Positions 11,368 through 34,242 of a stretch of 50,637 nucleotides of DNA are shown here, in pieces. Below the pieces are notes generated by a model. It was not told the DNA's origin and did not search any database. It saw only the letters and a program-made list of their open reading frames with translations. Origin of the DNA: a bacterium (GTDB lineage: Bacteria; Joyebacterota; Joyebacteria; Joyebacterales; Joyebacteraceae); contig JALGVU010000019.1 of NCBI GenBank assembly GCA_025774545.1, positions 1-50,637 on the forward strand. The letters are read 5' to 3'. How positions within the stretch are numbered: the first letter of the stretch is position 1; each line of letters starts with the position of its first letter. Position numbers and translations under genes: made by a program.

Positions 11368-11847
11368 CTACTCGTAGAGCGCCTTGATCACGCCCCAGCT
11401 CGCCACCGTCTCTGGCGCGCCTGTCTCTGCACAAGGGACGTAGCTCGCGATCACGGACGGTTGCGCGTTGCCCTCCACGCGGACCGTCCACGTGCCGGCG
11501 GAGATGAACTCCCAGGACCCATCGAAGTTGTTGTAGGTCTTCCACACGGTGACGGTGTAGTCCCCGGGATCGAGCCCGGCGATCGTCACCTCCGAATCGA
11601 AGCAGCAGAGGCAGTAGCACGGCCCGGCCTCGAACCGCTCCCACTCGATCACGTCGATCGTGTACCCGTCCTGCACGACCTCGATGTCGAGCCACGCGCA
11701 GCAGTTGTACCGCGCCTGGATGTGGTGGATCTCGATCGTACCGTCGTAGACGTCGATGTGGACGCTCTCCTCGCACTCCTGTGCGGAAGCGATCGACGCG
11801 ATGGCGACGAGGATCACCGCCAAGACGATCACAGCCGACGACCTCAT
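11368..11847 (-). CDS. Secreted Cys-rich protein with C-terminal SWGxIKALY tag (paralogue 1)
   Basis: 159 residues from ATG 11847, which has GGAGGTGATC upstream; the longer frame to 11898 starts before this ribosome site. A signal peptide (residues 1-22, ending IASIASA) is followed by a beta-rich domain with paired cysteines: NCCAW, then PCYCLCCFD. It next has VTIAGLDPGDYTVTVWKT, similar to carboxypeptidase-regulatory or transthyretin-like folds. The C-terminus is ASWGVIKALYE, a variant of the tag shared with five other exported proteins of this window. It is a paralogue of the gene just upstream (11933-12400) and probably cotranscribed. No enzymatic motif is seen. Confidence 0.8.
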   Translation of the reverse strand: MRSSAVIVLAVILVAIASIASAQECEESVHIDVYDGTIEIHHIQARYNCCAWLDIEVVQDGYTIDVIEWERFEAGPCYCLCCFDSEVTIAGLDPGDYTVTVWKTYNNFDGSWEFISAGTWTVRVEGNAQPSVIASYVPCAETGAPETVASWGVIKALYE

Positions 11848-11932
11848 CACGATCACCTCCCTCCTCTCGGGGCCTCGAGTGCCCCCACTTCGAGTCACGT
11901 TCGACAGGGCGCCCCGATCACGCCCCCGACTC

Positions 11933-12400
11933 TCACGGTCGATAGAGCGCCTTGATCGCGCCCCAACTCGCCCCCTCCTCGATCGAGGTCTCGGCGCACG
12001 GCAGATAGGCCGCCGTCAGCGCCGGCGGAGACGTCCCGCCGACTCCCACGATCCACTCGCCGACGAACTCGGTCCCGCCGAAGTCCGACGTCTTCCAGAT
12101 GGAGACGAAGTAGGCGCCCGGCGTCAGCCCGCCGATCGTGACCGAGACGTCGAAGCAGCAGAGGCAGTCACACGGCGCCGCCAGGAACTCCTCGTGTTCC
12201 CAGATCTCGATCGACGAGCCTTCCTGGATGATCTCGAAGTCGATCCAGGCGCAGCAGTTGAAGAGGGTCTGGTTGTGATGGAGAACGATGGTGCCGGGGT
12301 GGGTGACGAAGATCACGGACTCGTCGCACACCTGCGCCGATCCGATCGATGCGATGAGGAGAGCGGCGACCACCGCCGCCACAGGAACCCTGAACGTCAT
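11933..12400 (-). CDS. Secreted Cys-rich protein with C-terminal SWGxIKALYR tag (paralogue 2)
   Basis: 155 residues from ATG 12400 with GGAGG eight bases upstream; a GTG at 12409 overlaps the ribosome site. A signal peptide (to about residue 22, SIGSA) precedes the same domain as the next gene: NCCAWIDFEIIQEG, then PCDCLCCFDVSVTIGGL and FVSIWKT. It ends GASWGAIKALYRP. The cysteine clusters are conserved between the two copies, suggesting disulphides or metal binding in the periplasm or outside. An 85-base gap to the downstream paralogue suggests one transcript. Function unknown. Confidence 0.8.
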   Translation of the reverse strand: MTFRVPVAAVVAALLIASIGSAQVCDESVIFVTHPGTIVLHHNQTLFNCCAWIDFEIIQEGSSIEIWEHEEFLAAPCDCLCCFDVSVTIGGLTPGAYFVSIWKTSDFGGTEFVGEWIVGVGGTSPPALTAAYLPCAETSIEEGASWGAIKALYRP

Positions 12401-12488
12401 GCGGCTCACCTCCTCCCGCCCCGCGGCCCGTCAGGCCGTGGGCGTTCCGTTGGCCGTCCGGCGCCGGCCGATCGGGAGGCGAAGCCCG

Positions 12489-12518
12489 ACTATCGGAGGG
12501 TGATCGGTGGGTCGTCAG
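12489..12518 (-). promoter_or_regulatory. Weak possible promoter for the paralogous secreted-protein pair
   Basis: Minus strand CTGACG, 18 bases, GATAGT, about 89 bases before ATG 12400. The -35 overlaps the end of the nucleotidyltransferase gene. Confidence 0.25.
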
Positions 12519-13237: not shown

Positions 13238-13282
13238 CCAGCGCACCTCCGAGAGAGCCGTGGCAACAAGGTTCGTGCCCGC

Positions 13283-13312
13283 ATTATAGCAGGATTACTG
13301 ACGGATGCGCAA
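13283..13312 (-). promoter_or_regulatory. Sigma-70 promoter of the nucleotidyltransferase gene
   Basis: Minus strand TTGCGC, 18 bases, TATAAT (perfect -10). Leader of about 40 bases to GTG 13237. Confidence 0.6.
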
Positions 13313-13335
13313 GGGGGCTGGGCGCGGATCGACGG

Positions 13336-14412: not shown

Positions 14413-14494
14413 GTCGCTGCTCGGTCTCGCTCTGCGCCGGCCCCGCGGCGACTCGCCTGAGCGCGCTCCGCCGCGGGATCGCCGCGTGCCGTTG

Positions 14495-15637
14495 CTAGAA
14501 CTCGTACCCCACGGACGCACAGAGGCCGAGGGTGCTCGCGTCGTCGCTTCCTCCGTGAACCTCGAACTGCTCTCGCACGAAGCCCGCGTCCACGAAGTAC
14601 TGCACGAAGTGCACCGTCAGACCTCCCCCGAGCGCGTAGTCCGGAACGATGGCCTGAGACAGGCCGTCTTCGAGCTGCTTCGAGGCGCCGATGCGGAGAG
14701 TGAGCCTGCCGTCCCAGACGACGCCCGCGGCGCCCAACGCGATCGTCCGGATCGCGTCGCCGAACTCGTTGCGCTTCCCGCCGTCGTCAGGGTAGGCCGC
14801 GGCCTTGTCGGAAGCCCTCGCCTTGTTCCAGCCCTCGTGGATGTAGCTCGCGTAGAGCGTGTAGTTCGTCCCCAGGCGGTAGCTCAGGCCGCCGACCGCC
14901 GTCGGCTGCGTCTCCGAGGTTCCCGTGACGTCGTCCTCGCCGTACCATTCCCCGCTGACGTCGATCTTGGAGCCGAACCGGTACCCGAGACCGAAGGTCA
15001 GGTCGTCCGTCGAATCGAACACGAACCCGATCGCGATCGAGGCCGCCGTCCCGTCGAGCGACGCCTGGCCGAGACTGCTTCCACCGAGCGTCTCGTCGGC
15101 CGACTCGCCGATGCCGACGAGTCCCGCCGCGATGCCGATCCCGCCCTGGCCGTTCGTCCCGATCCTCGAGCCGAAGAGCACCTCGAAGAACCGGAGCGAG
15201 CCTGAGAACTCGCCGCGGTAGAGTCCGCCGGGCATGCCGCGCTGGAGGACGAGGTTCCGGTAGGCCGGGCTCGAGTAGCCGAATCCGAGCGTCCACGAGT
15301 CGGTCGTCTTGGCGGCAACGGCCTGCGACACCAGGAACTCGCTCTCGTCGACCCCGTATGTGTCCGGCGCGTCCGCGAGGTAGGAACGACTCGTGGCGCC
15401 GAAGCGGACCGTCGCCTGGCCGGAGACACCGGTGACGGTCGCCACGCAGCCGGGATTCAGGAAGTACGCCTCGATGCCGCCCGTCGCCGCGTTCGCGCGG
15501 CAGAGTGCGGCCTCCTGCGCATTGAGGTAGTGGTTGTACGTACGGGGAATGTCCCCCATCGCGAGCCTGGCCTCATCGGCCTGCGAGACGCAGGCGACGA
15601 CCAGGACGACCGCGACGGGGAGAAGAACGAAGCGCAT
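14495..15637 (-). CDS. Outer-membrane beta-barrel protein (FadL/OmpP1-like or related)
   Basis: 380 residues, ATG 15637 with GGGGAGG upstream. It has a signal peptide (1-20, ending VSQA). The protein then has alternating hydrophobic beta-strands with Gly/aromatic residues (SWTLGFGYSSP, DLTFGLGYRFGSK, LSYRLGTNYTLYASYIHEG) and ends GLCASVGYEF. The terminal Phe is the usual outer-membrane insertion signal. An asparagine-proline-rich early region (AYFLNPGCVATV) resembles FadL-type proteins. It lies 51 bases after the SWG-tagged gene, possibly one operon. Ligand unknown. Confidence 0.7.
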   Translation of the reverse strand: MRFVLLPVAVVLVVACVSQADEARLAMGDIPRTYNHYLNAQEAALCRANAATGGIEAYFLNPGCVATVTGVSGQATVRFGATSRSYLADAPDTYGVDESEFLVSQAVAAKTTDSWTLGFGYSSPAYRNLVLQRGMPGGLYRGEFSGSLRFFEVLFGSRIGTNGQGGIGIAAGLVGIGESADETLGGSSLGQASLDGTAASIAIGFVFDSTDDLTFGLGYRFGSKIDVSGEWYGEDDVTGTSETQPTAVGGLSYRLGTNYTLYASYIHEGWNKARASDKAAAYPDDGGKRNEFGDAIRTIALGAAGVVWDGRLTLRIGASKQLEDGLSQAIVPDYALGGGLTVHFVQYFVDAGFVREQFEVHGGSDDASTLGLCASVGYEF

Positions 15638-15688
15638 AGAGCCTCCCCGATGGCGCGGAACGAATCCGCTCGGCCATGTATCGTTCGT

Positions 15689-16270
15689 CTACCGGTACCG
15701 GTCCTTGATCGAGCCCCAGCTCTTCGACTCGACGGGACTTTCCTGCAAGACGAATTCTACATAGTCGACGGCCGATCGGCCACCGGAGATGTGCTCCACG
15801 GTAAAGAAATAGGTTCCTTGCTCAACGTAGATGACGGTGCTCCCGGCACACGAAGAGAAGGGACCTCACCCAAAGCCGTAGCCTTCCGACAGCGTGAACC
15901 GAGACGTGGTGGTCTCCCCTTCCTCCGGGCAGTCCTCTATCCTCACATCGAGTTCCACCGGGTCGCCGTAGAAGGACTGGTAGTCCATGATGAGCTCGTA
16001 GTACCCCGTGAACGGGATCGTGACCTCGAGCTTGATCCACTCACCGTCGACGTCGAGGCCGTCGGCCGCGTAGTACTCACTCGCGGCCGCGCAGAACTCG
16101 CGCGTGAGTGGGTTTCCGCCGATGTTGTGCGAGCCGTAGACCGGGTAGAGCTCTCCCTCGACCCGAACACCGTCGCTCGCCTGAACACTTGCCGCCGTCC
16201 CGAGTAGCACGACCATCGCGGCCAGGATGTGCACGGCATCCCCCCACGTCCTCGCTCCCAGCACTCTCAT
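15689..16270 (-). pseudogene. Secreted SWG-tagged protein interrupted by an in-frame TGA
   Basis: From ATG 16270 the frame encodes a signal peptide (to about residue 30) and a beta-rich domain (GYYELIMDYQSFYGDP). It reaches TGA at codon 135 (15868-15866), after SEGYGFG. The same frame stays open for 58 further codons that look authentic (GPFSSCAGSTVIYVEQGTY, then ISGG) and ends SKSWGSIKDRYR at the stop 15689. The C-terminal tag shared with other secreted proteins shows that the read-on is the original frame. TGA is used as a normal stop elsewhere here. Explanations are a nonsense mutation (from Trp, Cys, Gly or Arg codons), a base error, or recoding. I see no convincing SECIS hairpin after this TGA. 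Confidence 0.75.
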
Positions 16271-16351
16271 GATGCACTCCCTCGATGATGTAGCTGCACG
16301 CGTACACACCACCACGGGCGGCCCCCGGCCGGTCCCGTTTCGGGTCCTAGT

Positions 16352-16379: not shown

Positions 16380-16410
16380 CAAAGGAAGGAAGGTCGCGCG
16401 AGGGAATTAA

Positions 16411-19258: not shown

Positions 19259-19740
19259 TCACTCCGTTCGCACGCGCAGCTGCTCCGCCCGGACGCTGTC
19301 CCCCGCCGCGCTCTCCATGTCGCTCCACGCCGCCCAGAAAACGGGGCCCCCGGCGCCCTGCTCCTCGGCGACGTGGAAGTGCTCGCGGGCCTCGGCGTAC
19401 CGGCCGAGGTCGCCCAGGAGCGTCGCCTTGAGGACCCGCCCGCGCAGCATCCCCGGCAGGATCGCGAGCGCATCATCGACGAGCCTGAGAGCCTCTGCAA
19501 ACTGCCCGGAGCGCCTGAGCATCACGGCCAGGTCGCACTTGATTCCGGGATTGCGGGGCTGGAGCTTCACCGACCGCCTGAGGGCCGCCACGACGCGCTC
19601 CGCGTCGCCGAAGCACTGCTCGCCGCCGTCCGCTCGGCGCGGAACGGCGGGATCGAGCGTCTCCGCGCGCGCGTACGCGGCGACGGCCTCGGAGTAGCGG
19701 TGCTGGCGCGAGAGGAAATCGCATCGTGGCGAACGGCCGC
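19259..19740 (-). pseudogene. Out-of-frame C-terminal TPR tail of the DUF2723 protein
   Basis: This frame continues the tetratricopeptide repeats of the preceding ORF after a frame shift near 19720-19735. It reads DFLSRQHRYSEAVAAYARAE, then VVAALRRSVKLQPRNPGIK, FAEALRLVDDALAILPGML and YAEAREHFHVAEEQGAGG, ending AEQLRVRTE at 19259. Each unit has the helix pattern of a TPR. In the other frame the same DNA gives Arg/Ser-rich nonsense. One base gained or lost would restore a single protein of about 840 residues. Confidence 0.7.
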
Positions 19741-21783
19741 GATCAGATCGGCTCTGGCCTGGTCGAGCTCCCCGAGTTCGGTGAAGAGCAGGTGGATGTT
19801 GTATCGCGGAGACGCCAGCCCGGGCGCCTCCCGCAGAGCGGCGTGGAACGAGGCGAGCGCCTCGTCGAGGCGCCCGGCCCTGAGATACGCGACGCCAAGA
19901 CGGTCGTGTATCTCTGCCACGCCGGGAGCGAGGTCGCGTCCGGTCTCGAAGGCGCTCACCGCCTCCCCGAGCGCGTCTCTGGCGAGAGCGAGCTCGCCGT
20001 ACCCTGCCAGCACCCCGGCGTACGCTTCCCTCTCCGCACGCGGAACGCGGTCGCCGGCGAGACCCCAGAGGTAATCGTCCCACCGCTCCTCTTCGAAGAT
20101 CGGCTCGGCAGGCACCCCGGCCCCGAACCCGGCGGGATCAATCTCGACGAGGAGCCCGCGCGGAACGACCCTGTCCGCGAAGATGTCGGCCGCGAGCGCG
20201 GCGTCGGCGAAGATCGGGCGCTCCGTGGCGTTCATGTACACCAGGAGCGGAGCGTACTCTCTGATCGGCAGAACCCATCTGGCCGGAGGATCGCACGGTG
20301 GCGCGTTGATCTGTCCGAAGTAGACGGCGATCTCGTCCTCGGAGGGGAAGTCGACGTCGTCGTGCCACGACTCAAGGTGCGGCGCGTAGCCCCGGACATC
20401 GAGAACGTCGAGATCCGGCCGCCGACCAGCGGCGACGAGCGCGTACGTGAGCGGGTCGATCGTCGCGTCGGCCTCGGCGAGGAGCACGGCGTCGCGGTCG
20501 AGCGACGCGAGCATGCGCTCGACGTGGAGCGACGCCCCGCGGCGGGGCCGGCGATCCTGCTCCTCCCAGAGGTCGCTCACCTGTGCGACGATGACCGCCG
20601 AAATGAGCGCGACCGGCACGCAGGCGAGGACGATCCGCCCCGGCTCGAGGCGCGGGGGAACGAAACGAACGAGCGCGACCAACCCGACCGCCCCGACGAG
20701 CGCGATCGCGACGTACGCCGGAATGAGGAACCCCGAGGCGTCGTCCATGCGGAAGCTCGCCGCGTGCGCGAAGAGGAGCACCGCGTGAAGAACGAGGAGC
20801 CCCAGCAGGATCCTGCGTCTCCTACAGAGCGACCACGCGCCCAGGGCGGAGAGGGCCAGCACGGACCAGTGGATCTCCCGCGGGATCCCCCGCACGAGAT
20901 CGGCGAACCTGAGCGCGGCCTCGACGATCGGAACCGCGAGGACACTCGAGACGTACGGCGCACGGCCGATGTGCTCGACGACGCCTCGCCAAGTGTCCGG
21001 CCTCGCCGCGAGGACCGCGGGGTCGGACGCCGCCCGGAGCGGCAGGTAGACATAGAAGGAGAGTCCGAGCGCGAGGAGGACGAGGGAGACGCCGATCGCC
21101 TTCGCCCCGGGGCGCGCCCGGAGGCCCGCGAACAGCCCGACGAGGACGGACGGAAGAACGAGCGCGGCGCTCACGACGTGCGAGAGCGAGAGCCCGAGGA
21201 CGAACCACAGCATGAAGAGCGCCGGCGCGCCCGCGTCCGGGTCGGCGGGCCCCGTGACGACGGGCAGCGGAGAGAGCATCGTCCCGGCCCGGATCCAGAC
21301 CACCAGCAGCGCCAGGGTCGCGGCGGCGAGAAGAGCCCCCAGAGCGTGCACGTCTGGGATCGTCGACTGGGACCAGAGCGAGGGGGAGACCGCCACGATC
21401 AGGCCGGTGAGCGCCGCCGCGGAGGCTCTGGACACCAGGGCCGAGGTGGAGGAGTCGGAGTCGAACACGTGCGCGAGGAGCTCCCACGCGAGGAGAACGA
21501 CGACGCCTGCCGCCGCGGCCCCGAAGAGGGCCGAGAGCACGGAGAGCCGGAAGAACGGTGCCCCGAAGGGAACGCGGACAGCGATGGCCGAGAGCAGCGT
21601 GAAGAGCGGATAGCCGGGCGGGCGCGCCACACCGAGCGAATGCGCCACGGCGGCGTAGTGCGGGGGGTCGCCCCACGTCACCTCGCGCGCGGCCGTCAGA
21701 ACGTAGATCGTCGCCGCGGCCGCCGCGACGGACAGCGCGAGCACGATGCTGAGCTTCGGCCGACGCCCAAGGACCACGGTCAC
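19567..21783 (-). CDS. DUF2723 membrane protein with C-terminal TPRs (frame disrupted at 3' end)
   Basis: Start taken as GTG 21783 (VTVVLGRRPKLSIV); a GTG two codons later has the better-placed GAGGTG. The N-terminus has a hydrophobic segment followed by VTWGDPPHYAAVAHSLGVARPPGYPLF, the DUF2723 signature (shown here in part). About ten membrane segments follow, similar to GT-C glycosyltransferases. After these comes a soluble region with TPR units (AEIHDRLGVAYLRAGRLDEA, then LASFHAALREAPG). From about 19725 the frame turns into low-complexity Arg/Ser sequence and stops at 19567; the true continuation is in another frame to 19259. The family is thought to act in cell-surface glycosylation; this is by similarity only. 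Confidence 0.8.
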   Translation of the reverse strand: MTVVLGRRPKLSIVLALSVAAAAATIYVLTAAREVTWGDPPHYAAVAHSLGVARPPGYPLFTLLSAIAVRVPFGAPFFRLSVLSALFGAAAAGVVVLLAWELLAHVFDSDSSTSALVSRASAAALTGLIVAVSPSLWSQSTIPDVHALGALLAAATLALLVVWIRAGTMLSPLPVVTGPADPDAGAPALFMLWFVLGLSLSHVVSAALVLPSVLVGLFAGLRARPGAKAIGVSLVLLALGLSFYVYLPLRAASDPAVLAARPDTWRGVVEHIGRAPYVSSVLAVPIVEAALRFADLVRGIPREIHWSVLALSALGAWSLCRRRRILLGLLVLHAVLLFAHAASFRMDDASGFLIPAYVAIALVGAVGLVALVRFVPPRLEPGRIVLACVPVALISAVIVAQVSDLWEEQDRRPRRGASLHVERMLASLDRDAVLLAEADATIDPLTYALVAAGRRPDLDVLDVRGYAPHLESWHDDVDFPSEDEIAVYFGQINAPPCDPPARWVLPIREYAPLLVYMNATERPIFADAALAADIFADRVVPRGLLVEIDPAGFGAGVPAEPIFEEERWDDYLWGLAGDRVPRAEREAYAGVLAGYGELALARDALGEAVSAFETGRDLAPGVAEIHDRLGVAYLRAGRLDEALASFHAALREAPGLASPRYNIHLLFTELGELDQARADLIAAVRHDAISSRASTATPRPSPRTRARRRSIPPFRAERTAASSASATRSASWRPSGGR

Positions 21784-22041
21784 CTCGCCTGGCTCGGTTC
21801 TCGACGCCGGGACGTTGGCGCCCGCCCATACAGCCGATCGGCACGACGGACGGGTGACGGACGCCGCGGGACTTCGTACCGCGAGCGCCCCGGCTCGGAT
21901 GCTCGTTCGTGGATGCGCGGTCAATCGATGTTACCACACGAGAGCGGCAGCGTCGAGACTCCCTCCGGGCGGCTGCGGAGGAGACACCGCGCCACCGTCG
22001 CCGGCGGGGGCCGCGCGCTGGCCGAAGCGCGGATTCCGGGG
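21784..22041. other. Gene-free stretch between divergent genes
   Basis: Between the DUF2723 start and the thioesterase promoter. A minus-strand TTGACC (21918-21923) could be a -35 element but no matching -10 is evident. No gene or RNA recognised. Confidence 0.3.
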
Positions 22042-22877: not shown

Positions 22878-22890
22878 GCGGAGGACGACC

Positions 22891-23787
22891 ATGAAGGTCT
22901 CGTTCAGCGCGTTCGTCGTTCTCGTGATGCTCGCCCTCGCGCCGTCCGGCCAAGGAAGCTCGCGCGACGGGCGGCGGACGTTGCGCCCGGCCGCACTGTT
23001 CCCGCGCGGGCCCACTCTCGATCGGGCCGACGTCCTCGTCTGCATCGACATCAATGATCACGTCGGCTTCGCGGACCTCACGATGCGCTACGTCGACGCC
23101 TTCGTCGGCGCGGGGGCGCAATCGATCGCAACGTGCGGGGTAGAGGAGCCGTACGGCCTCATCGAGTTCCCGCCCGAGGTCACGGCGGACAACTACCCCA
23201 TCGTGGTGGTCCTGACGAGCGAGAACTGGTGGGCCGAGGCCGGCTCGAACATCGACCCGGAGGACGAGGCCGTCCTCGCAGACTACCTCGAGACCGGCGG
23301 CAACCTGCTCCTCGTCGGCCAGGATTACATGCGCGGCGCGCACCCTGACATGAACGGCGACGCGCACCCGTGTTACGGGTTCCCTCGCGAGTTCCTCGGC
23401 CTCGACGTCTGCTACCAGGACGTCGCGTACAACCCCCCGGACCCAGCGCCCGAGACCGCCACGATCACGGGCTCGGACGGATGGCTGTTTGAGAGTGAGA
23501 GCGTGTCGCTCGACGCGTCCTCGGTCTTCCTGGACAACAACTTCTACGCGGACTGCGCCGTCCCCGTCGAGACGGGAGGGTGCGCCTTCGCCTACAAGGA
23601 AGCCGAGATCGACGGCGCGGTCGTCTACAACGAGGCGCGCGGCTTCAGGACGGTGTGGGCCGGGATAGAGATATCGGCCGCGCCCGTCGAGGACTTCCAC
23701 CGAATCGTCGCGTCGATCTGCGAGTGGTTCGGACCGTGTCCCGTCGAGGAGGCCTCGTGGGGACGCATCAAGTCGCTCTTCCGCTAG
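22891..23787 (+). CDS. Secreted protein with C-terminal SWGRIKSLFR tag
   Basis: 298 residues, ATG 22891 with GGAGGACGACC upstream. A signal peptide ends about residue 22 (APSGQGSS). The body contains ADVLVCIDINDH, YPIVVVLTSENWW and VLADYLETGGNLLLVGQDY, a pattern like the flavodoxin/glutamine-amidotransferase-like domains next to C25 peptidases. Several cysteines are present (DVCYQDV, CGVEEP). It ends EEASWGRIKSLFR, the tag shared with five other exported proteins. It is 13 bases behind the thioesterase and just upstream of the C25-family genes. No catalytic residues can be assigned. Confidence 0.75.
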   Translation: MKVSFSAFVVLVMLALAPSGQGSSRDGRRTLRPAALFPRGPTLDRADVLVCIDINDHVGFADLTMRYVDAFVGAGAQSIATCGVEEPYGLIEFPPEVTADNYPIVVVLTSENWWAEAGSNIDPEDEAVLADYLETGGNLLLVGQDYMRGAHPDMNGDAHPCYGFPREFLGLDVCYQDVAYNPPDPAPETATITGSDGWLFESESVSLDASSVFLDNNFYADCAVPVETGGCAFAYKEAEIDGAVVYNEARGFRTVWAGIEISAAPVEDFHRIVASICEWFGPCPVEEASWGRIKSLFR

Positions 23788-23865: not shown

Positions 23866-23894
23866 TTGACGAACGGTAAAATATGTGGTATTAT
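23866..23894 (+). promoter_or_regulatory. Sigma-70 promoter of the first C25-family gene
   Basis: TTGACG, 17 bases, TATTAT in a locally AT-rich patch. Transcription start near 23901, leader about 55 bases to GTG 23956. Confidence 0.7.
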
Positions 23895-23955
23895 GGAATG
23901 TCTGTGGACCGGAAAGGGGCTCCCCCGACCCATCGTGACTGACGAGGAGGACAGG

Positions 23956-26900
23956 GTGGGAACGAATGACCGCTCAGCTTTGAGACACGCGTTCGTGATC
24001 GCGGCCGCCGCGGTGTGTGCGGCGACCCTGGTGAGCACCGGTGCCGCCTTCGCGGCGACCGTCGCGCCGCGCGACGCCGCAACCGCGTACGCGGCGGAGA
24101 CGGTGCTTCACGTTGACGGCGGCCCGACGGGCGAAACGACCCTCCGCTTCGAGCTCGTCTCGCCGACGGACGCGTTCGCCGCGGGCGCGGCGACGGGGGA
24201 CGAGCGCTCATCGCTGCCGACCGTGCGGTACGCGCGTGCGGCCGAGGACGGCGCGACGTGGAGGGCGAGGGCGATGGGGCCCGCCTCGTTCACGACGCTC
24301 ATCCGCGTTCCCGACACGGGTGCCGTCGAGTACGAGATCCTGTCCGGGGAGCTGGCGTCAAGCGCCGGTACGCCGTCGCGCGCTCCCGCGATCGACGACG
24401 CAGGGCTCGAGGGCGCGATCGAGGTCTCGGAGCCGGCGATCATGCGCGACCTCCGCGTCGTGCGGGTGACGTTCTCGCCGCTCTCGCAGAGCGGCACCGC
24501 GGATGTCCTGGTCCGCTCGGTCACCGTATCGATCCGCACGACGGCGGGCGCCGGCGTGAACGAGAAGACCCGCAGTCGCGCGACCGTGTCGCAGGCCTTC
24601 CTCCCTCTCTACGAGAGCAAGGTGGCGAACTACCGGCACGAGGAGGCGGTCGACGGTACCCCGGGACGTGGCTCGGGCAGGGACGATCCCTTCGGGGCCC
24701 GCTATCTCATCATCACGAGGGACTCCTACGAGTTCTACGTCCAGCCTCTCGCCGAATGGAAGCGCACCAAGGGAATCCAGACCATGGTCGTGAGGATCTC
24801 GACGATCGGCTCGACCCCTTCGGCCATCCGCTCCTACATCGAGGACGCCTACTACGGGTGGGAGGTGCCACCCGAGTACGTGCTCCTCGTGGGCGACACG
24901 GAGGCCGTTCCGACCTACTACGACCTCGCCCCGACGGACAACTACTACGCGGCGATCGACGGTTCGGACTACCTGTCCGACATCATGATCGGGCGCATCT
25001 CGGCGGACACCAGCACTCACTGCAGCACGCAGGTGAACAAGATCCTCTCCTACGAGCGGACGCCGCTCGAGGACCATCCCGAGTGGCCGGCGACCGCGAC
25101 CCTCATGGTGGCGGACGACTTCGACGCCGGCGACTGGGTCTACTACATGAACACGTGGTTCATCTACGACCTCATGGAGGACGCCGGCTTCGCGCGGATC
25201 GACACGCTCTTCCGGAGAAACGACATCGACCACTCCGACGTCTACGACTCGGTCAACGACGGCAAGGGCTTTCTGAACTTCAGGGGCCAGGCGTATCACG
25301 AGTGGAATCCTCCCTTCGACATCAACCCGGGCCAGACGACCAACTACTGGAAGTACCCGATCATCATGTCGGCCACGTGCGGCACAGGAGACTTCAGCGT
25401 CGACAACTTCATGTGCGAGAACTGGATGCGCGCGGGGTCGCCGTCGGCCCCTGAAGGGTCGGTCGCCTTCTTCGGGACGAACACCGCGCTCCCGGGAAGC
25501 GGGCAGCTCTCCCGGCGGAGGGGCTACATCGACATGGGCTTCTTCGAGGACGCGTTCGTCACCGGCGACGGGACGCTGGGCGCGGCGTGCCTCGCCGGCA
25601 AACTGAACCTCTTCGTGATCGACCCAGACGAGATGGAGTACCAGGGCTGGAACCTCCTCGGCGATCCCGCGATGAGCATGTGGACGGCGGTGCCGAGGCA
25701 CCTCTCGGTCGCCTACGACGAGGCGATCCAGGTGGGGCCGTCGACCTTCAGCGCGACGGTCACGTCCGAGGGCGCGCCGCTTCCGGGCGCCGTCGTCGCG
25801 TGCACGAAGGGCGACGAGGTCTTCGCCTGGGGAACGACCGACGCGTCGGGCCAGTTGACGCTCGACGTCGAGGCCGAGACCGCCGGTGAGCTGGCCGTGA
25901 CGATCACCGCAAGGAACTGCTACCCGTTCGAGGGAACGACGCCCGTGCTCGAGTCCGGGCCGTTCGTGATGTACTCCGACCTCTCGATCGACGACGCCGA
26001 GGGGGGCAACGACGACGGGTACTTGAGCCCCGGAGAGACGGCCGCGATCGCGATCGAGCTTCTGAACGTCGGCGACGCAGACAGCGGTCCGACGACGGGG
26101 ACCGTGCGGAGTTCGGATCCCTTCGTCACCATCGTCGACAGCCTGGCGAGCTACGGCGTCATCGCGCCCGACGCGACGGCCTGGGGCGAGGACGACTACG
26201 AGATCTCGCTGTCGGCGGCGTGTCCGGTCGGCCACGAGATCTCCTACACCCTGGTCGTCGACTTCGGCGGAGAACCGATCACCTGGACCCCGCCGCCGAT
26301 CCCGGTCTCGACGGGACGCCTCGCGCACGACGCGAGCATCGTTCTGGACGAGGCGCCGGGAGGCGACGGCAGCGGAACGGCGGGACCCGGCGAGTCGGTC
26401 GGCCTCACGCTCGTGCTTCAGAATGAGGGCGCGTGCGGGGTCACGGACATCGAGGGAACGCTCGGGAGCCGGCACCCGCTCGTCGCGGTGACGTCTTCCC
26501 ACGCTCCCTTCGGCGACGCCGGCCCGGGAGCGATCGCGCAGAACGATGAGGTGCCGTTCATCGTCTCGGTGATGCCGGGCGCCCCGACCGGGACCCTCGT
26601 GACCCTCGAGCTCGTCCTTGCGGGCGCAGGCCACTCGTACGCCTACGCCGAGACCGTGAGCCTCGATCTCGAGATCTCGGGATCGTCCGCGTTCTACCCG
26701 ACTGGGCCGGACTCGCACGGCTACTACGCGTACGACGCGAACGACTCGCTCTACGCGGCCGCTCCCGCGTACGAATGGGTCGACATCGCCCCGCCGGGAC
26801 CGGGCATCATCATCAGCGAGATCACCGACGAGGACGCGGCCATCACGACGATCCCGCTGCCGTTCCCCTTCAACTACTACGGAGAGACCTACCTCCAGGT

Positions 26901-27999
26901 GTCGGTCTCGTCGAACGGTTTCATCACGATGGACATGAACGACTACCTCTTCGGCGACAACTCCCCCATTCCCAGTCTCCATGGTCCGACGAGGATGATC
27001 GCCCCGTTCTGGGACGATCTCGACCCGTCGGCCGGGGGCGACATCTACAAGTGGTACGACGAGGCGGAGCACCGCTTCATCATCCAGTACGACGAGGTGG
27101 CCCGCTGGGGCGCGGCCGAGACCGAGACGTTCCAGGTGATCTTCAAGAACGAGCCGACGCCGACGGGCGACGGGATCATCACGTTCCAGTACGAGAGCGT
27201 GGCGGGAACCGACCTGTGTACGGTGGGCATCGAGAACAGGGCCCAGACCGACGGCGTCCAGTACCTCTTCGACGGCGCCTACGGGACGCACGCGTCCCCG
27301 CTCCGGGGCGGCCTCGCGATCGCGTTCACGACGGAGGAGCCCGGTAGTCCCGAGGCGCCTTGGCTCGTGCTCACGGACGTCTCGATCGACGACTCTGCCG
27401 ACGGGAACGGCAACGGCCTGCCCGAGCCCGGCGAGACGATCACGCTCTCCCTCGAGTTCGCGAACGAGGGGGTAGACGACGCGAACGGCATCTCGCTCGC
27501 GCTGTCGTCGCCGCACGCCTACGTCTCGCTCGTCGACAGCACGGCCGTGCTGCCCAACATCCCGTCCGGCGGATCCGCGGAGACCGGCGCGGGCGAGCTC
27601 GTGCTCTCCCTGTCCCACGCGATCGACGACACCGTGGCCACGATCTACGCGTCGCTCCAGGCGAACGGCGGCGCCTACGCGGCGAGCGCACGTCACAACC
27701 TGCACGTCGGGCTGCCGGCCACCGGGATCGACACCGATCAGGAGGTGTTGGCCTTCCGGCTCTTCCCCTGCGCCCCGAATCCGTTCACGGAAGGCACGCG
27801 CGTGCGCCTCGCCCTGCCCAACCCCGAGCGCGTCGCGCTGCGTGTGTACAACACGGCGGGCAGGCTCGTCGCCACGGTGCACGACGCGCCGCTCGAGCGC
27901 GGCCTGCACACGATCACGTGGGACGGAAGCGGCGTCTATCTGATGCGGGTCGAGGCGGGACGCCACGAGGCGTCACGCAAGGTCGTCCTTCTGAAATAG
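23956..27999 (+). CDS. Gingipain-type (C25) protease-like secreted protein with FlgD-like C-terminal domain
   Basis: 1347 residues from GTG 23956 (GAGGAGGACAGG upstream); earlier in-frame starts lie inside the promoter. It has a signal peptide (to about residue 36), then a C25-type propeptide. The peptidase-like domain runs from about 248 (ARYLIITRDSYEFYVQPL, then VPPEYVLLVGDTEAVP, NYYAAIDG). Cys475 sits in IIMSATCGTGDF, like the gingipain nucleophile. The usual GHG is RGQAYHEW, with His448 three residues further on. Downstream are CARDB-like repeats beginning DDAEGGNDDGYLSPGETA, a sandwich domain (FPFNYYGETY) and a terminal FlgD/type-A-sorting-like domain (CAPNPFTEGTRVRL to KVVLLK). Activity is uncertain given the altered His motif. 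Confidence 0.85.
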   Translation: MGTNDRSALRHAFVIAAAAVCAATLVSTGAAFAATVAPRDAATAYAAETVLHVDGGPTGETTLRFELVSPTDAFAAGAATGDERSSLPTVRYARAAEDGATWRARAMGPASFTTLIRVPDTGAVEYEILSGELASSAGTPSRAPAIDDAGLEGAIEVSEPAIMRDLRVVRVTFSPLSQSGTADVLVRSVTVSIRTTAGAGVNEKTRSRATVSQAFLPLYESKVANYRHEEAVDGTPGRGSGRDDPFGARYLIITRDSYEFYVQPLAEWKRTKGIQTMVVRISTIGSTPSAIRSYIEDAYYGWEVPPEYVLLVGDTEAVPTYYDLAPTDNYYAAIDGSDYLSDIMIGRISADTSTHCSTQVNKILSYERTPLEDHPEWPATATLMVADDFDAGDWVYYMNTWFIYDLMEDAGFARIDTLFRRNDIDHSDVYDSVNDGKGFLNFRGQAYHEWNPPFDINPGQTTNYWKYPIIMSATCGTGDFSVDNFMCENWMRAGSPSAPEGSVAFFGTNTALPGSGQLSRRRGYIDMGFFEDAFVTGDGTLGAACLAGKLNLFVIDPDEMEYQGWNLLGDPAMSMWTAVPRHLSVAYDEAIQVGPSTFSATVTSEGAPLPGAVVACTKGDEVFAWGTTDASGQLTLDVEAETAGELAVTITARNCYPFEGTTPVLESGPFVMYSDLSIDDAEGGNDDGYLSPGETAAIAIELLNVGDADSGPTTGTVRSSDPFVTIVDSLASYGVIAPDATAWGEDDYEISLSAACPVGHEISYTLVVDFGGEPITWTPPPIPVSTGRLAHDASIVLDEAPGGDGSGTAGPGESVGLTLVLQNEGACGVTDIEGTLGSRHPLVAVTSSHAPFGDAGPGAIAQNDEVPFIVSVMPGAPTGTLVTLELVLAGAGHSYAYAETVSLDLEISGSSAFYPTGPDSHGYYAYDANDSLYAAAPAYEWVDIAPPGPGIIISEITDEDAAITTIPLPFPFNYYGETYLQVSVSSNGFITMDMNDYLFGDNSPIPSLHGPTRMIAPFWDDLDPSAGGDIYKWYDEAEHRFIIQYDEVARWGAAETETFQVIFKNEPTPTGDGIITFQYESVAGTDLCTVGIENRAQTDGVQYLFDGAYGTHASPLRGGLAIAFTTEEPGSPEAPWLVLTDVSIDDSADGNGNGLPEPGETITLSLEFANEGVDDANGISLALSSPHAYVSLVDSTAVLPNIPSGGSAETGAGELVLSLSHAIDDTVATIYASLQANGGAYAASARHNLHVGLPATGIDTDQEVLAFRLFPCAPNPFTEGTRVRLALPNPERVALRVYNTAGRLVATVHDAPLERGLHTITWDGSGVYLMRVEAGRHEASRKVVLLK

Positions 28000-28023
28000 C
28001 CGCTCGAAGACACGATCCGACCG

Positions 28024-28241: not shown

Positions 28242-31200
28242 GTGTCGCATCGCTTCCCGATCGCATCCGCCGTGGCGGCCCTCGCCGCGGTTCTCGTTCT
28301 GACTCACGCGCCGTCCGTCATCCCGCTCGCGTCGAGCGACGCCGGCGCGCTTCCGCCGTCCGTCACCCCCTACGAATCGACGGCGAGGGTCCTCTCGACC
28401 GCGACCCAGAGCGTGACGCTTCGCTTCGAGATCGACGGGACGCCGGGCGAACCACCGAGCGCCGTCGCGAACCAGGACGCACCGCTCACCGTCGTTCGGT
28501 ACGCGGGACACGCGGAGCCAGGCTCTTCCTCCGAAGGCCGCACGTGGCGCGCGACGTCGTCCGCGCCCGGGCCGTTCACGGTCCTCGTACGCGTTCCGGA
28601 TCGAGGAGCGATCGAGTGGGACGTCGAGAGGGAGAGCGTGGATGGGGCCGACCCAGTCGGCTCCCCTTCGGACGCGGCGGCAGCGGACCAGAGGAGTCTC
28701 GTCGAGGTGTCGGAACCTGCGATCATGAGGGACATCCGCGTCGTTCGGGTGACCTTCCTTCCCTCGGGGACGGCGTCGGAGCGTCGCGAGACCCGTGCGC
28801 TCACGCTCACGCTCCGGGCGACGGGCCGGGCGGGCGCGAACGAGAAGGACGGACGACATCCCTGCGCGTCGGCGCCGTTCGGGCGTCTCTACCGCTCCTC
28901 CGTAATCAACTACGTGGATGACGGGGCGCCCGTCGCCTCCGTCCCCGCGGCCGGGGAGCGCGAGGAACCGACGGGAGCGCGCTACCTCATCGTCACCGAC
29001 CACATCTACGAGGACTCGCTCGAGCCGCTCGTCGCCTGGAAGGACACGAAGGGGCTCCGCCCGAAGGTCGTCAACCTCTTCGAGACCGGGATGACGGCCG
29101 ACGACATCCGCCTCTACATCCAGAACGCGTACGACACGTGGGACGTCCCCCCCGAGTACGTGCTCCTCGTGGGCGACACCGAGGTGCTTCCCCCCTTCCA
29201 CGCCCTCGCGGTGACCGACAACTACTTCGCCACGGTCGAGGGAACCGACTACGTGGCCGACCTCTTCGTCGGCAGGCTCCCCGCGGACAGCGTCTCCGAG
29301 TGCGAGACGATGATCGCGAAGATCCTCGCGTACGAGAGGCCGTGGACGTCGGACGATCCGGCCTGGCCGATGAGCGCGTCGCTCCTCCTCCGTGACGACT
29401 TCGACATGGGCGACATGATCTACTACGACAACACGTGGTTCATCCACGACCTGATGGAGGCGCACGGATTCGATCCGATCGACCTGCTCTTCCACGCCGA
29501 CGGCATCACCAACGGCGACACCTACGCGTCCCTGAACACGAGCAAGGGGTTCGTCAACTACCGCGGCATCGCGGGCGACTTCTGGCCCGAGCCGTTCAGC
29601 ATCGCGCCGACCTCTCTCACGAACGGCATCAACGGGCCCATCGTCGTCTCCGCGACCTGTCTCACGGGGGCGTACGACGACGACGTGCGCCTCTCGGAGT
29701 GGTGGCTCAGGGCCGGCACGCCGGCCGACCCGACCGGAGGTGTCGCGTTCTTCGGAACGAGCACGCACGGCCAGGGTCCCGAGCTGTCGCGGAAGAGGGG
29801 CTACATCGATGAGGCCTTCTTCGCCAACGCCATGGGACCGGGCCGGACCCTCGGCGAGGCGTGTCTCGCGGGGAAGCTCGAGGTCTTCACCGTGACGGGA
29901 GACCAGTGGGAGTACGAGGGATGGAACCTGCTGGGGGATCCCGATCTCAGCATCTGGACCGCCGTCCCGGAGTCGCTCGCGGCATCGCGTGAGCTCGTGA
30001 TGCACGACGACCACCTCGAACTGACCGTGACCGTGTCGAACGATCGTGAGGCGGTCGCGGGCGCGTTCGTGACGTGCCAGAAACCGCACGCCTTCTACCT
30101 GTCCAGCGAGACCGACGGCGCAGGCGGGGCCACCTTCGTCTTCGACGCCGCCCTCCCCTGCACCCTCAGGCTGACCGCAACGGGCAAGAACGCTGTGCCC
30201 CTCGACGAGACGGTCGTCGTCGCGCCGCAGGGACCGTACCCGACGTTCGCCGAGGCGACGATCGACGACTCCGAGGGAGGAAACGGCGACGGTTTCCTGA
30301 GCCCCGGCGAATCGGCCTCGGTCTCGATCTGCCTCACGAACATCGGCTCCGCGGGAAGCGCCGGCGTCCAGGCCGTGCTCCGGTCGCTCGATCCCTACGC
30401 CTCGGTGACCGACAGCGTGGCGAGCTTCGGGGACATGGCCTCCGGCGCCACCGAGTGCGGCGACGTGTCCTACGGAATCTCGGTCGCGGACGACTGGCCG
30501 GGCGGGTACCACCTGCCCATCGCGCTCGCGATCGCGCACGACGGGTCGCTGGGCCTCTGCCGCCCGACGCCCCTCCCGACGGTGAGCGGCGCCCTCACGG
30601 CCGGCGCCGCGTCGTTCGACGACGGAGGCCCGGGAGGAGACGGGGACGGCCGCATCGAGCCCGGCGAATCGGCCGGCATGATCCTCGAGCTCAGGAACGC
30701 GAGCGGCGCGGCCCTCTCGTCGATCACCGGGACCCTCTCGAGCGCCGACCCGTACGTCTCGGTGGTGAACGACCTCGTCCTCTACGCCGATGCCCCGGCG
30801 GGATCGCTCATCCAGAACGCGAGCGAGCCGTTCGTCGTCTCCGTCTCGCCCGGGATCCCCCCCGACCACGAGGTGACGCTCTCGCTCCGCGTCGACGGCG
30901 AGGCGCCGACGTACGCGTACGCTGAATCGCTCGACATCGCGCTCGATGTGTCGACAGCGCTCACGTCGCTCCCGTCGGGCCCGGACGCGTACGGCTACTA
31001 CGCCTACGACTCGACCGACACGCTCTATCGCGAGGCGCCCATCTTCGAGTGGATCGACATCGCACCGCCTGGGCCGGGCGGCCGCATTCCCCGCGTGAGC
31101 GACGCGGACGACGACGTGAAGCTCCTGCCGACCGGCTTCACCGTGGGGTACTACGGCCTGCCGGTGACCTGGATGGTGCTCTGCACGAACGGTTTCGTGT

Positions 31201-32291
31201 CGCTCGAGATGACCAACTTCGTCTACGGAACGAACTCACCGATCCCGTCGATCCTCGGTCCGCCCAACATGATCGCGCCCTTCTGGGGCGAGCTCGACCC
31301 GTCGGCCGGCGGCGACGTTTACGTCTGGCAGGACGTCACCGGCGGCCGCATCGTCATACAGTACGAGAACGTCCGCCACAAGAACTCCTCCGACGCCGAG
31401 ACGTTCCAGGTCGTCATCTACGACCCCTTCATCTTCCCCACGCCGTCGGGCGACAGCAAGATCCTCTTCCAGTACGAGTCCGTCTCGCAGTCGGACAGCT
31501 GCACCGTCGGAATCGAGAGCCCGTCGCAGCTCGAGGGCGTTGGCTACCTCTACGACGGGGGCTACGACCCGCGCGGCGCACCGCTGGACGACGGCCTGGC
31601 GATTCTCTTCACCACGGCCGCGCCGGAGACCCTCGCACTTCCGTGGATCGTTCTGCGCGATGTCACCGTCGACGATTCCGAGGGCGGGAACGGGAACGCG
31701 GTGGCGGAGCCGGGTGAGACCGTGGCGCTCGTCGTGGAACTCGCGAACGACGGACTGGGCGCCGCCACCGATGTCGTGCTCGCGCTCGCCACGAGCGACT
31801 CGTCGATCGCGCTCGCCGACACGACGGCGAGCCTGCCGGACATGGAGCCGGGCGGATCGGCGACGAACGGAGCGAGCCCCTTCACGCTCACGGTGTCGGA
31901 GGAGCTCGACGACTCGTCCGCGACGCTCTGGCTCCGCGTGGGAGGGAGCGCGGGCGCGCACCAGCGAGCACTCAGACTCGATCTCGACCTCGTGAGGCCC
32001 ACCCCCGTCGCTTCACGCCTCGCCCTCTCGCCGTGCTACCCGAACCCGTTCAACGACGGAACGCGCGTGCGTCTCACGCTCCCGGAGCGGCGAGATGTGA
32101 CGCTTCGGGTCTACGACGTCGCGGGGAGGCTCGTCCGAACCGTGTGGGACGCTCCTCTCGATGCCGGGCCGCGGGAGCTCGACTGGGACGGCCGGGACGC
32201 GGACGGGCGGCAGACGGCGAGCGGCGTCTACTTCGTGCGGCTCAGGGCCGGAGACGACACGAGAACGCGCAAGGTCGTCGTGCTGCGCTGA
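28242..32291 (+). CDS. Second gingipain-type (C25) protein, tandem paralogue
   Basis: 1349 residues, GTG 28242 with GGAGG upstream. It has the same architecture as the gene before: signal peptide (to about residue 30), propeptide (VEVSEPAIMRDIRVVRVTF is shared almost word for word) and a C25-like domain (ARYLIVTDHIYEDSLEPLVA, then PPEYVLLVGDTEVLP). Repeats follow (DDSEGGNGDGFLSPGESA), and it ends in a FlgD-like domain (LSPCYPNPFNDGTRVRLTLP to KVVVLR). Cys473 (VVSATCLTG) is kept, but the histidine motif is RGIAGDFW with no histidine, so it is probably not an active C25 peptidase. It may be a structural or binding paralogue. A weak -10 (TATCTT, 28101-28106) lies upstream. Confidence 0.85.
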   Translation: MSHRFPIASAVAALAAVLVLTHAPSVIPLASSDAGALPPSVTPYESTARVLSTATQSVTLRFEIDGTPGEPPSAVANQDAPLTVVRYAGHAEPGSSSEGRTWRATSSAPGPFTVLVRVPDRGAIEWDVERESVDGADPVGSPSDAAAADQRSLVEVSEPAIMRDIRVVRVTFLPSGTASERRETRALTLTLRATGRAGANEKDGRHPCASAPFGRLYRSSVINYVDDGAPVASVPAAGEREEPTGARYLIVTDHIYEDSLEPLVAWKDTKGLRPKVVNLFETGMTADDIRLYIQNAYDTWDVPPEYVLLVGDTEVLPPFHALAVTDNYFATVEGTDYVADLFVGRLPADSVSECETMIAKILAYERPWTSDDPAWPMSASLLLRDDFDMGDMIYYDNTWFIHDLMEAHGFDPIDLLFHADGITNGDTYASLNTSKGFVNYRGIAGDFWPEPFSIAPTSLTNGINGPIVVSATCLTGAYDDDVRLSEWWLRAGTPADPTGGVAFFGTSTHGQGPELSRKRGYIDEAFFANAMGPGRTLGEACLAGKLEVFTVTGDQWEYEGWNLLGDPDLSIWTAVPESLAASRELVMHDDHLELTVTVSNDREAVAGAFVTCQKPHAFYLSSETDGAGGATFVFDAALPCTLRLTATGKNAVPLDETVVVAPQGPYPTFAEATIDDSEGGNGDGFLSPGESASVSICLTNIGSAGSAGVQAVLRSLDPYASVTDSVASFGDMASGATECGDVSYGISVADDWPGGYHLPIALAIAHDGSLGLCRPTPLPTVSGALTAGAASFDDGGPGGDGDGRIEPGESAGMILELRNASGAALSSITGTLSSADPYVSVVNDLVLYADAPAGSLIQNASEPFVVSVSPGIPPDHEVTLSLRVDGEAPTYAYAESLDIALDVSTALTSLPSGPDAYGYYAYDSTDTLYREAPIFEWIDIAPPGPGGRIPRVSDADDDVKLLPTGFTVGYYGLPVTWMVLCTNGFVSLEMTNFVYGTNSPIPSILGPPNMIAPFWGELDPSAGGDVYVWQDVTGGRIVIQYENVRHKNSSDAETFQVVIYDPFIFPTPSGDSKILFQYESVSQSDSCTVGIESPSQLEGVGYLYDGGYDPRGAPLDDGLAILFTTAAPETLALPWIVLRDVTVDDSEGGNGNAVAEPGETVALVVELANDGLGAATDVVLALATSDSSIALADTTASLPDMEPGGSATNGASPFTLTVSEELDDSSATLWLRVGGSAGAHQRALRLDLDLVRPTPVASRLALSPCYPNPFNDGTRVRLTLPERRDVTLRVYDVAGRLVRTVWDAPLDAGPRELDWDGRDADGRQTASGVYFVRLRAGDDTRTRKVVVLR

Positions 32292-32532
32292 GAACACACG
32301 TCCTCCCACTTGCGGTTGAGGGCGGTCGATGACGGTTCCATGGTGATGGTCGTCGCACCGCGGTGGCCCCGACCGTCATCCTCCCGGTGCCTCGAGCCCC
32401 TCCCGACCACGGCGCCACGACCGACCGCCCGCCGGCGGCGCGCGTGAGCAGGCATCACGATCCCGAAAACCCCGTCTGCACCTCCCGATCCGGGCGAAGC
32501 TCGGCCGGCGGGACCGTGGCTCGGCATTTCTG
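32292..32532. other. Gene-free stretch after the second C25-family gene
   Basis: No supported gene, terminator or RNA seen; small frames here overlap on both strands without starts or recognisable sequence. Confidence 0.3.
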
Positions 32533-32561
32533 TGGCATCACACTCCCTGATGTGTTATGAT
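32533..32561 (+). promoter_or_regulatory. Possible promoter of a secreted SWG-tagged protein gene
   Basis: A -10 TATGAT (32556-32561) in an AT-rich island, with a poor -35 (TGGCAT) 17 bases upstream; leader about 105 bases to GTG 32671. Confidence 0.3.
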
Positions 32562-32670
32562 AACTGTGAACATCGAGTGAAGGCGTGCCGCCCGGAGGCG
32601 GCGGGGACGGAGCGAGTGAATCCCCACTCAGTGTATGTACGGGGCGCTCCAAGGGACCAGGAGAGACACC

Positions 32671-33240
32671 GTGAGAATCCTAGGACCGATCCTCCTCATT
32701 CTCGTGACAGCGGTCGCGGCGCCGGCCGACCTCTCCCCGTGCTACATCGAGCTCCTCTCCGGCTCCTACTACGAGCCCGGCACGCCGGACACGCTCGTCT
32801 TCAAGATCTACAACCACGCGACCGACGGCGAGGCGATCAAGGACGTCATCATCCAGATCGAGAGCTACTGGGTGCTGTGGGTCGAGGAGGAGACGCTCGG
32901 ATACGACGAGATCGAACCGGGCCGTCCCAGTTGGGAGACGTCGGTCCACTACGCGACGGGCTGCCCCGACTACTGCATCGCCATCATCGGCGCGAACGAC
33001 AACAACGGAAACCCGGGAGAGATCTTCCCCGGCGAGAGCACGACGCTACGCGTCGGCTGCGAGGCGAGCGTGGAGCACTGCCCCACCGAGATCGATGTCT
33101 ACTGGTGGCTCTTCGGGGACGTGTTCAAGGACGGCGTGCGTTCGAACACGAGCGGCCTCTTCAGCGTGGGCTGCGTGGAGCCGTCACCCGTCGCGTCCGG
33201 GAGCTGGGGCGCGATCAAGGCGCTCTACCGGCAGCCGTAG
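32671..33240 (+). CDS. Secreted protein with C-terminal SWGAIKALYR tag
   Basis: 189 residues from GTG 32671 (AGGAGAGACACC upstream). A signal peptide (VRILGPILLILVTAVAAPA) is followed by a beta-sandwich-like domain (LVFKIYNHATDGEAIKDVII, then GNPGEIFPGESTTLRVGC) resembling CARDB/Ig-like adhesion or scaffold domains. Five cysteines are present (including GCPDYC, GCEASVEHC). It ends SGSWGAIKALYRQP. It has no recognisable enzyme motif. A perfect bidirectional hairpin separates it from the convergent tagged gene. Confidence 0.75.
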   Translation: MRILGPILLILVTAVAAPADLSPCYIELLSGSYYEPGTPDTLVFKIYNHATDGEAIKDVIIQIESYWVLWVEEETLGYDEIEPGRPSWETSVHYATGCPDYCIAIIGANDNNGNPGEIFPGESTTLRVGCEASVEHCPTEIDVYWWLFGDVFKDGVRSNTSGLFSVGCVEPSPVASGSWGAIKALYRQP

Positions 33241-33322
33241 CGAGCGAGTAGGCAACGCCCGGCCGAGGGCTCCGTTCGACACCGAGCGATAGTCGACTCC
33301 GCGATACCGCCACACAACGAAT

Positions 33323-33352
33323 CGGCCCCCGCCGCATCCGCGGCGGGGGCCG
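33323..33352. terminator. Bidirectional terminator between two convergent SWG-tagged genes
   Basis: A perfect 13-bp stem (33323-33335 with 33340-33352) with loop atcc, followed on the plus strand by agcgTTTc. Confidence 0.75.
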
Positions 33353-33405
33353 AGCGTTTCGAGAGCCCGAGGCGTCGATCGCGGCCGAGGCCGCTCGCGC
33401 CGGGA

Positions 33406-34242
33406 CTACCTGTAGAGAGCCTTGATGCTACCCCACGTGGACTCCTCGACGGCGGTCACCTCCTGGAACTCGATCTGGGCCGCGCCGGAGTTGTTGCCCA
33501 TCGTGAAGATGCTGTCATCGACGAAGAAGGCGTAGACCCAGCCCGTCACGTGGATCGTGAACTCGATCTCCTCGCCGTACTCCAGGAACTTCAGGATCGG
33601 ATGGGTCGGCCGCGTCGGGTCCTCGTCGACCCTGCGGTAGAACATGCAGACGCCGTCGAACGCCCCCTCGGGGTACCCGTTCGTCGCCCCATCGCCCGTG
33701 ACCGAGGCCACGTAGTGCGTATACGGAACGAGCACGATCTTCGCCGCGCCCTGATCCTCGAGGCCGACGCAGTTGAAGACCGCGTTGACGTTGATCTCAA
33801 CGGGCGTGCCCGACGCCGGCTCGCAGAGCACGGTCAGGCTGCCGGTGTTGTCGGCGACGTCCTTCAGGGTCTTGTCCACGAGGAACGCCCAGAACGGCGA
33901 GCCGCTCGCGACGATGGTGATTTCCTCTCCCTTCGGGAGGAAACGGATGACGGGGTGGTTCGGACTGACGAAGTCGTAGTAGTAGAGGAAGAGACCATCG
34001 AACTCGCCGTGCGGCATCGGATTCGCGCGCGCGTTGCCGTCGCAGGAGACCGTGTAGATCATCCCGGGCTCGAGGCTGGCGCTGATGCCGCCCATCTGCA
34101 TCAGTGCGAGGCAGTTCCCGTTGTACGGCAGGCCCGGAATCTTCGTGCTCACCGTCAGGTACTCCGTCGCCTGCGCGGCGGCCGAGTACGCCGTCATCCA
34201 CACGACGATCATGAAGAGCACCAGCAGATAGCTCCGTCTCAT
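33406..34242 (-). CDS. Secreted two-repeat protein with C-terminal TWGSIKALYR tag
   Basis: 278 residues, ATG 34242. A signal peptide (to about residue 25, AAAQA) precedes two related halves. The first carries HGEFDGLFLYYYDF, HPVIRFLPKGEEI and WAFLVDKTL; the second carries EGAFDGVCMFYRRV, HPILKFLEYGEEI and YAFFVDDSI. So the body is an internal duplication of a beta-domain of about 110 residues. It ends EESTWGSIKALYR. A strong promoter lies 106 bases upstream. No enzyme motif is seen; a surface or envelope structural role is only a guess. Confidence 0.8.
   Translation of the reverse strand: MRRSYLLVLFMIVVWMTAYSAAAQATEYLTVSTKIPGLPYNGNCLALMQMGGISASLEPGMIYTVSCDGNARANPMPHGEFDGLFLYYYDFVSPNHPVIRFLPKGEEITIVASGSPFWAFLVDKTLKDVADNTGSLTVLCEPASGTPVEINVNAVFNCVGLEDQGAAKIVLVPYTHYVASVTGDGATNGYPEGAFDGVCMFYRRVDEDPTRPTHPILKFLEYGEEIEFTIHVTGWVYAFFVDDSIFTMGNNSGAAQIEFQEVTAVEESTWGSIKALYR

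Follow-up and report, generated by a model that had tools for sequence, protein, structure and literature searches.

The 50.6 kb window examined in this work (by which we mean the whole stretch of DNA that was analysed) contains six genes for proteins with a signal peptide, one of them if read across an in-frame TGA codon, that share a short tag at the C-terminus, together with two C25 peptidases and a further protein that end in a FlgD_ig/Por_Secre_tail-type domain and have no tag (Table 1). A first-pass annotation made from the sequence had placed copies of the motif at these six protein ends. All six are present, and the W-G-x-I-K-x-[LMIR]-[YF] DNA pattern matches exactly 6 times in the window, compared with 0.00 on average when its sequence was shuffled 100 times with dinucleotides preserved. 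The bodies bearing the tag had been described as six unrelated proteins; five body types are found rather than six, because the first two carriers in Table 1 are paralogs. The tag is retained in the homologs of the last carrier, L154 (60% identity) and L060 (46%). The window also encodes a TMEM260-like O-mannosyltransferase with TPRs, homologs of which occur in 12 collected loci.

Table 1. Tagged genes and other features of the 50.6 kb window.
Feature	Position	Strand	Basis
Tag SWGVIKALYE, ending directly at the stop codon (11368-11370)	11371-11400	-	pattern search
Carrier ORF, small and Cys-rich, signal peptide MRSSAVIVLAVILVAIASIASAQ; paralog of the carrier at 11933; no family match	11368-11898	-	
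Tag SWGAIKALYRP, C-terminus	11936-11968	-	pattern search
Carrier ORF with signal peptide; paralog of the carrier at 11368	11933-12409	-	
FadL-like beta-barrel gene, directly downstream of the tagged candidate selenoprotein gene	14495-15637	-	
Tag SWGSIKDRYR, C-terminus	15692-15721	-	pattern search
Carrier frame through TGA (15866-15868), candidate exported selenoprotein with tag	15689-16315	-	
TMEM260-like O-mannosyltransferase with TPRs	19567-21924	-	
Carrier ORF, signal peptide start MKVSFSAFVVLVMLALA	22816-23787	+	
Tag SWGRIKSLFR, C-terminus	23755-23784	+	pattern search
C25 peptidase, C-terminal FlgD_ig/Por_Secre_tail-like domain (alternative tail), no tag	23866-27999	+	
C25 peptidase, C-terminal FlgD_ig/Por_Secre_tail domain, no tag	28242-32291	+	
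Carrier ORF with signal peptide	32635-33240	+	
Tag SWGAIKALYRQP, C-terminus	33202-33237	+	pattern search
Tag TWGSIKALYR, C-terminus; predicted lone helix, low confidence	33409-33438	-	pattern search
Carrier ORF, signal peptide and duplicated all-beta body	33406-34242	-	
Protein with terminal FlgD_ig/Por_Secre_tail domain, no tag	36107-36964	-	

The core of the tag is [ST]WGx[IV]Kx[LMI][YF]R, about 10 residues that follow a "PVE" linker, and in this and related genomes the full conserved unit reads [ST]-P-V-E-[ED]-x-[ST]-W-G-x-I-K-[AGS]-[LMI]-[YF]-R. The signature first proposed, [ST]WGxIK[AS]L[YF]R, is thus real but incomplete, since the unit extends into the [ST]-P-V-E-[ED] linker. With the other positions fixed, W and K never vary, I is replaced by V twice and G by S, A or T seven times, counts that flatter W, G, I and K, as most of the loci were gathered by the WGxIK pattern; WGxLK and WGxMK are also seen as rare forms of the tag. 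Every synonymous codon is used for its Gly, Ile and Lys, and conservation is therefore at the level of the protein. The aromatic Y/F is usually followed by R, sometimes by Q, E, K or nothing, and 0-6 variable residues then lead to the stop, so that the carboxylate is unlikely to be decisive for recognition. Signals that are read at the C-terminal carboxylate (PDZ or tail-specific protease ligands, the OMP beta-signal) require a fixed terminal residue that the tag does not have, and internal copies of the tag exist.

In the genome from which the window derives (Candidatus Effluviviacota; 4.11 Mb in 512 contigs) there are 65 matches to the pattern and 0 to its reversed form, with 62 copies lying 9-15 residues before a stop (52 of these exactly nine residues from it) and the remaining 3 lying internally. 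The motif had been described as close to the stop in all six window proteins; in the whole collection 296 of 308 tagged ORFs have it within 15 residues of the stop and 12 have it farther away, and two tags in one ORF were found in none of the 308. All 20 Candidatus Effluviviacota genomes contain the pattern, at 15-66 copies each (792 matches versus 4 for the control), as do 67 of 80 genomes in a set of Krumholzibacteriota and UBP1 and every genome of two further phylum sets (5/5 for the G036/G027 set, 8/8 for the G048/G029 set). In a set containing Latescibacterota the pattern occurs in 41/64 genomes, mostly as stray single matches; genuine tags make up only a subset and often take the form WGxIKxxF. 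Krumholzibacteriota loci fetched with no requirement for a stop have their matches 8-11 residues from one. Tags are present as well in the closed chromosome CP070702.1. A search of GTDB contigs for the VE...R-stop form returned at least 112 stretches, with Effluviviaceae, Eisenbacteria, Krumholzibacteriia, Latescibacterota, UBP1 and a few labelled Gemmatimonadota among the matches listed. The tag spans at least five little-known bacterial phyla and dozens of otherwise unrelated exported proteins.

Export of the carriers, proposed at the outset from the window alone, extends to the collection as a whole: scored with a home-made predictor, 157 of 170 complete tagged proteins (~92%) have a signal peptide, compared to 164 of 408 other proteins from the same loci. 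A transmembrane-like segment after the signal peptide is present in 1/157 tagged and 43/164 other proteins, in keeping with the earlier observation that no hydrophobic segment follows the motif. The full-length tagged proteins fall into 71 body clusters, most of them with no Pfam match at all; the few that could be assigned include beta-helix, InhA-like MAM, FG-GAP, nidogen-like, PKD, lamin-tail, starch-binding and sorbosone-dehydrogenase bodies. The first-pass annotation had named two outcomes that would speak against a tag, namely occurrence in cytoplasmic proteins or away from C-termini, and descent of all carriers from one domain family; neither was observed. An unselected 400-kb stretch of genome G003, in which 336 proteins were called, contains two copies of WGxIK, each at a C-terminus, and 0 of the reversed motif. 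That the tag is the product of chance, or the terminal strand common to a single homologous domain family, has next to no probability and is already refuted: two of the six window carriers are indeed paralogs, but no match arises in shuffled or reversed controls, the bodies form about 70 clusters, and the tag relocates as a module, as described below.

The third carrier in Table 1 is a candidate for a new exported selenoprotein bearing the tag. Its frame is broken by an in-frame TGA, upstream of which the continuation reaches a signal peptide, and this TGA is kept in a G-[FI]-G-U-G-[PV] context in five loci (the window, L042, L057, L180 and L181). Within this family protein similarity runs across the TGA into the tag, a hairpin of -12 to -19 kcal/mol is predicted no more than 47 nt after the TGA, and tRNA-Sec is encoded in 20/20 genomes of the phylum. 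A second tagged short ORF with an in-frame TGA ahead of it was observed at L206 in Krumholzibacteriota (genome G063), reading ...AACGPA[TGA]GLMCVQ....

Relocation of the tag is best seen in one family of MAM-like proteins, to which eight of the 12 copies far from a stop belong. In these eight of its 19 members the tag is internal, ~300-337 residues before the end, and in L131, an apparent member among the 19, it lies 329 residues from the end. The internal tag occupies an insertion of ~25-40 residues between ...LPP[IV] and P[VI]LT[FY], into which the linker has moved along with it (VEEISWGAIKALYRDG...); members with a C-terminal tag have no such insertion, and the two positions are never used together. 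At L131 the internal tag is intact and the C-terminus, ...SSSWQLIKEIAR, looks like a decayed second tag. Since one family bears the tag in an internal loop, the tag is not the strictly C-terminal sorting signal that had first been envisaged. Furthermore, because linker and tag stand either in the loop or at the end, the tag can probably work without a free C-terminus, and this speaks against a signal that is cut off. Usable at the end or in a loop, and once per protein, it has the behaviour of a docking motif and not of a signal removed by cleavage. An Arg-specific protease cutting internal copies after ...LYR could nevertheless recreate a C-terminal tag, and the internal copies are thus no strict proof that a free end is unnecessary.

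We consider it improbable that the tag is a processing signal, at which a putative transpeptidase would cut at or near IK or YR and attach the protein to a surface polymer. The position and shortness of the tag, its invariant Lys and its common terminal Arg would suit such a role, as would the many C25 peptidases (30 matches in the genome of the window), C25 being the peptidase family of gingipains and PorU. Against it, the tag has neither the transmembrane segment nor the basic cluster of LPXTG, PEP-, GlyGly- and MYXO-CTERM signals, is internal in one family, and is borne by genomes in which the number of C25 peptidases does not follow the tag count: tag-rich genomes have 2-4, and genomes lacking the pattern up to 19. 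C25 (gingipain-like) peptidases are also very numerous in four other Effluviviacota, with 12-26 matches each.

Many exported proteins in tag-bearing genomes end, like the three in the window, in a FlgD_ig/Por_Secre_tail domain. No protein among the collected loci (217 tagged, 74 with tails) has both, in line with the original view that the tag is distinct from the FlgD-like domain, and homologous bodies bear one or the other, the clearest pair being L081 (tag) and L049 (tail), with 53% identity over 452 aa. A search of the 13 Krumholzibacteriota genomes lacking the pattern for homologs of a tagged beta-helix protein gave 20 closed frames, one of them a fragment; of the 19 complete homologs, 15 end in a T9SS-type domain. 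L273, a homolog with no such domain, ends in ...VPTEKQSMGDVRALYR, which looks like a decayed tag. The tag therefore replaces the T9SS/FlgD C-terminal domain on relatives of the same proteins. Neither TIGR04183/PF18962 nor TIGR04131/PF13585 matched the tagged window proteins or 70 body representatives. A simple V[ED] linker is not enriched before FlgD tails (28/74 versus 392/1035), and a specific acidic linker pattern precedes 21/74 FlgD/T9SS tails versus 42/4140 random segments, an enrichment that may in part be general linker composition. SprA, the T9SS translocon, is encoded in 53/53 genomes tested, tag-rich and patternless, and in 0/14 control genomes; these include all tested Effluviviacota, Krumholzibacteriota and Latescibacterota genomes (for example G000:C185:12627-17246), and some T9SS papers describe the system as exclusive to Bacteroidota. 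As genomes with no tag pattern also encode SprA, its presence does not discriminate, and it was rejected, together with C25 number, as the gene tracking the tag. No protease, porin or transpeptidase of the kind predicted to track the tag was found.

The main rival to our preferred reading, unlikely in our estimation but serious, is that the tag is a minimal T9SS secretion signal of a new type, read by a shuttle barrel other than PorV that would extract the cargo from SprA. The universal presence of SprA, tag-rich genomes included, favours this, as do the interchange with T9SS-type domains on homologous bodies and the similar acidic linker common to tag and tails. Like the tag, T9SS domains of type A (TIGR04183/PF18962) and type B (TIGR04131/PF13585) are C-terminal on Sec-exported proteins of the same body families, and which shuttle barrel reads a domain differs with the type of domain (PMC12618676, PMC10202324). 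A possible shuttle lies in the window, where the FadL-like barrel gene follows the tagged candidate selenoprotein gene, and it is kept beside the homologs of that gene in L057, L180 and L181 (44-48% identity); however, its structure model is poor (pLDDT 40) and a comparison with the PDB matched no PorV-like chain. The known domains, moreover, are beta folds of ~40-235 residues in the cited literature, the shortest having 40-55 residues and three beta-strands (PMC11969387), whereas the tag has about 10, shares no sequence match with them and is probably a helix. SprA is present in patternless genomes as well, and the internal copies misfit a signal known only at the C-terminus.

A helical tag is suggested by an AlphaFold2 model of the last carrier in Table 1, built with two homologs, in which the residues of the tag (267-277) form a helix set apart from an all-beta body, with pLDDT <50. 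Judging from the residues, the S/T before W would cap the helix, and W, I, L and Y would fall on one face. Trp and Tyr/Phe together with Lys/Arg are typical of interfacial helices, and the consensus has this composition, so that an amphipathic helix could sit in the outer-membrane surface with no receptor at all. We regard this as quite improbable, as the near-invariance of W, G, I and K across phyla exceeds what binding to lipid would require, and exchanges for other hydrophobic residues are rare.

Our best explanation, to which we assign about an even chance of being right, is that the tag is an uncleaved docking motif on Sec-exported proteins, bound by a putative envelope receptor and probably serving surface delivery or retention. 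The acidic PVE linker would bear a short amphipathic helix, one face lined by W, I, L/M and Y/F and the opposite face by K/R, and a conserved envelope receptor in these FCB-group phyla would bind this helix. Binding would most likely bring the carrier to the cell surface or keep it in place there, the tag thereby doing the job of the T9SS-type C-terminal domain on relatives of the same proteins, and the tag would probably stay uncut. We infer the surface destination from the swap with T9SS-type domains and from the kinds of body that bear the tag (beta-helix, FG-GAP, CBM, nidogen-like). A Pfam scan of 131 neighbours of tagged genes returned scattered families only, with no dedicated partner family and no candidate for the receptor.

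LPXTG, PEP-, GlyGly- and MYXO-CTERM signals resemble the tag in being short C-terminal motifs on dozens of unrelated exported proteins per genome, but in tripartite sorting tags the motif is followed by a hydrophobic transmembrane helix and then a basic cluster (PMC11980579). The tag has no transmembrane helix, basic cluster or Cys and is not strictly C-terminal; nearly all copies have just the 0-6 residues after the aromatic, and the single transmembrane-like segment among 157 proteins likewise departs from the tripartite architecture. By analogy, the tag may work as dockerin-type modules do, these being small portable modules that hold secreted proteins on a receptor, although it has only about 10 residues, no Ca-binding repeats and no cohesin-like partner identified. 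Encapsulin and microcompartment cargo peptides are also short C-terminal amphipathic targeting helices on a flexible linker, but they act in the cytoplasm, whereas nearly all complete tagged proteins have a signal peptide. NCBIfam returned no match for five window carriers (threshold E<=1) or for four tails (E<=10), no Pfam or PDB model matches the tag, a literature search on the motif found no paper in the library searched, and the term 'C-terminal' is absent from the paper describing Effluviviacota, all of which agrees with the initial statement that no described family with this signature was known. Lacking the parts that define each sorting-tag family tested, the tag fits no described protein-sorting signal. 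Short sorting tags are already a known kind of signal; there is a real chance that this one is categorically new.

We hold more tentatively, as a possibility that could well fail, the wider proposal of a categorically new FCB-group surface-display system, in which a ten-residue docking motif, C-terminal or in a loop, would be read by a dedicated receptor and, in at least five phyla, would have traded places with T9SS-type domains on dozens of protein families. If true, this would reveal how extracellular proteins are directed in a large and barely cultured share of bacterial diversity. The tag would also provide a sequence handle by which hundreds of otherwise unannotatable proteins are marked as sharing one destination, and it raises the question of what reads WGxIK and why WGxIK can replace a T9SS-type domain.
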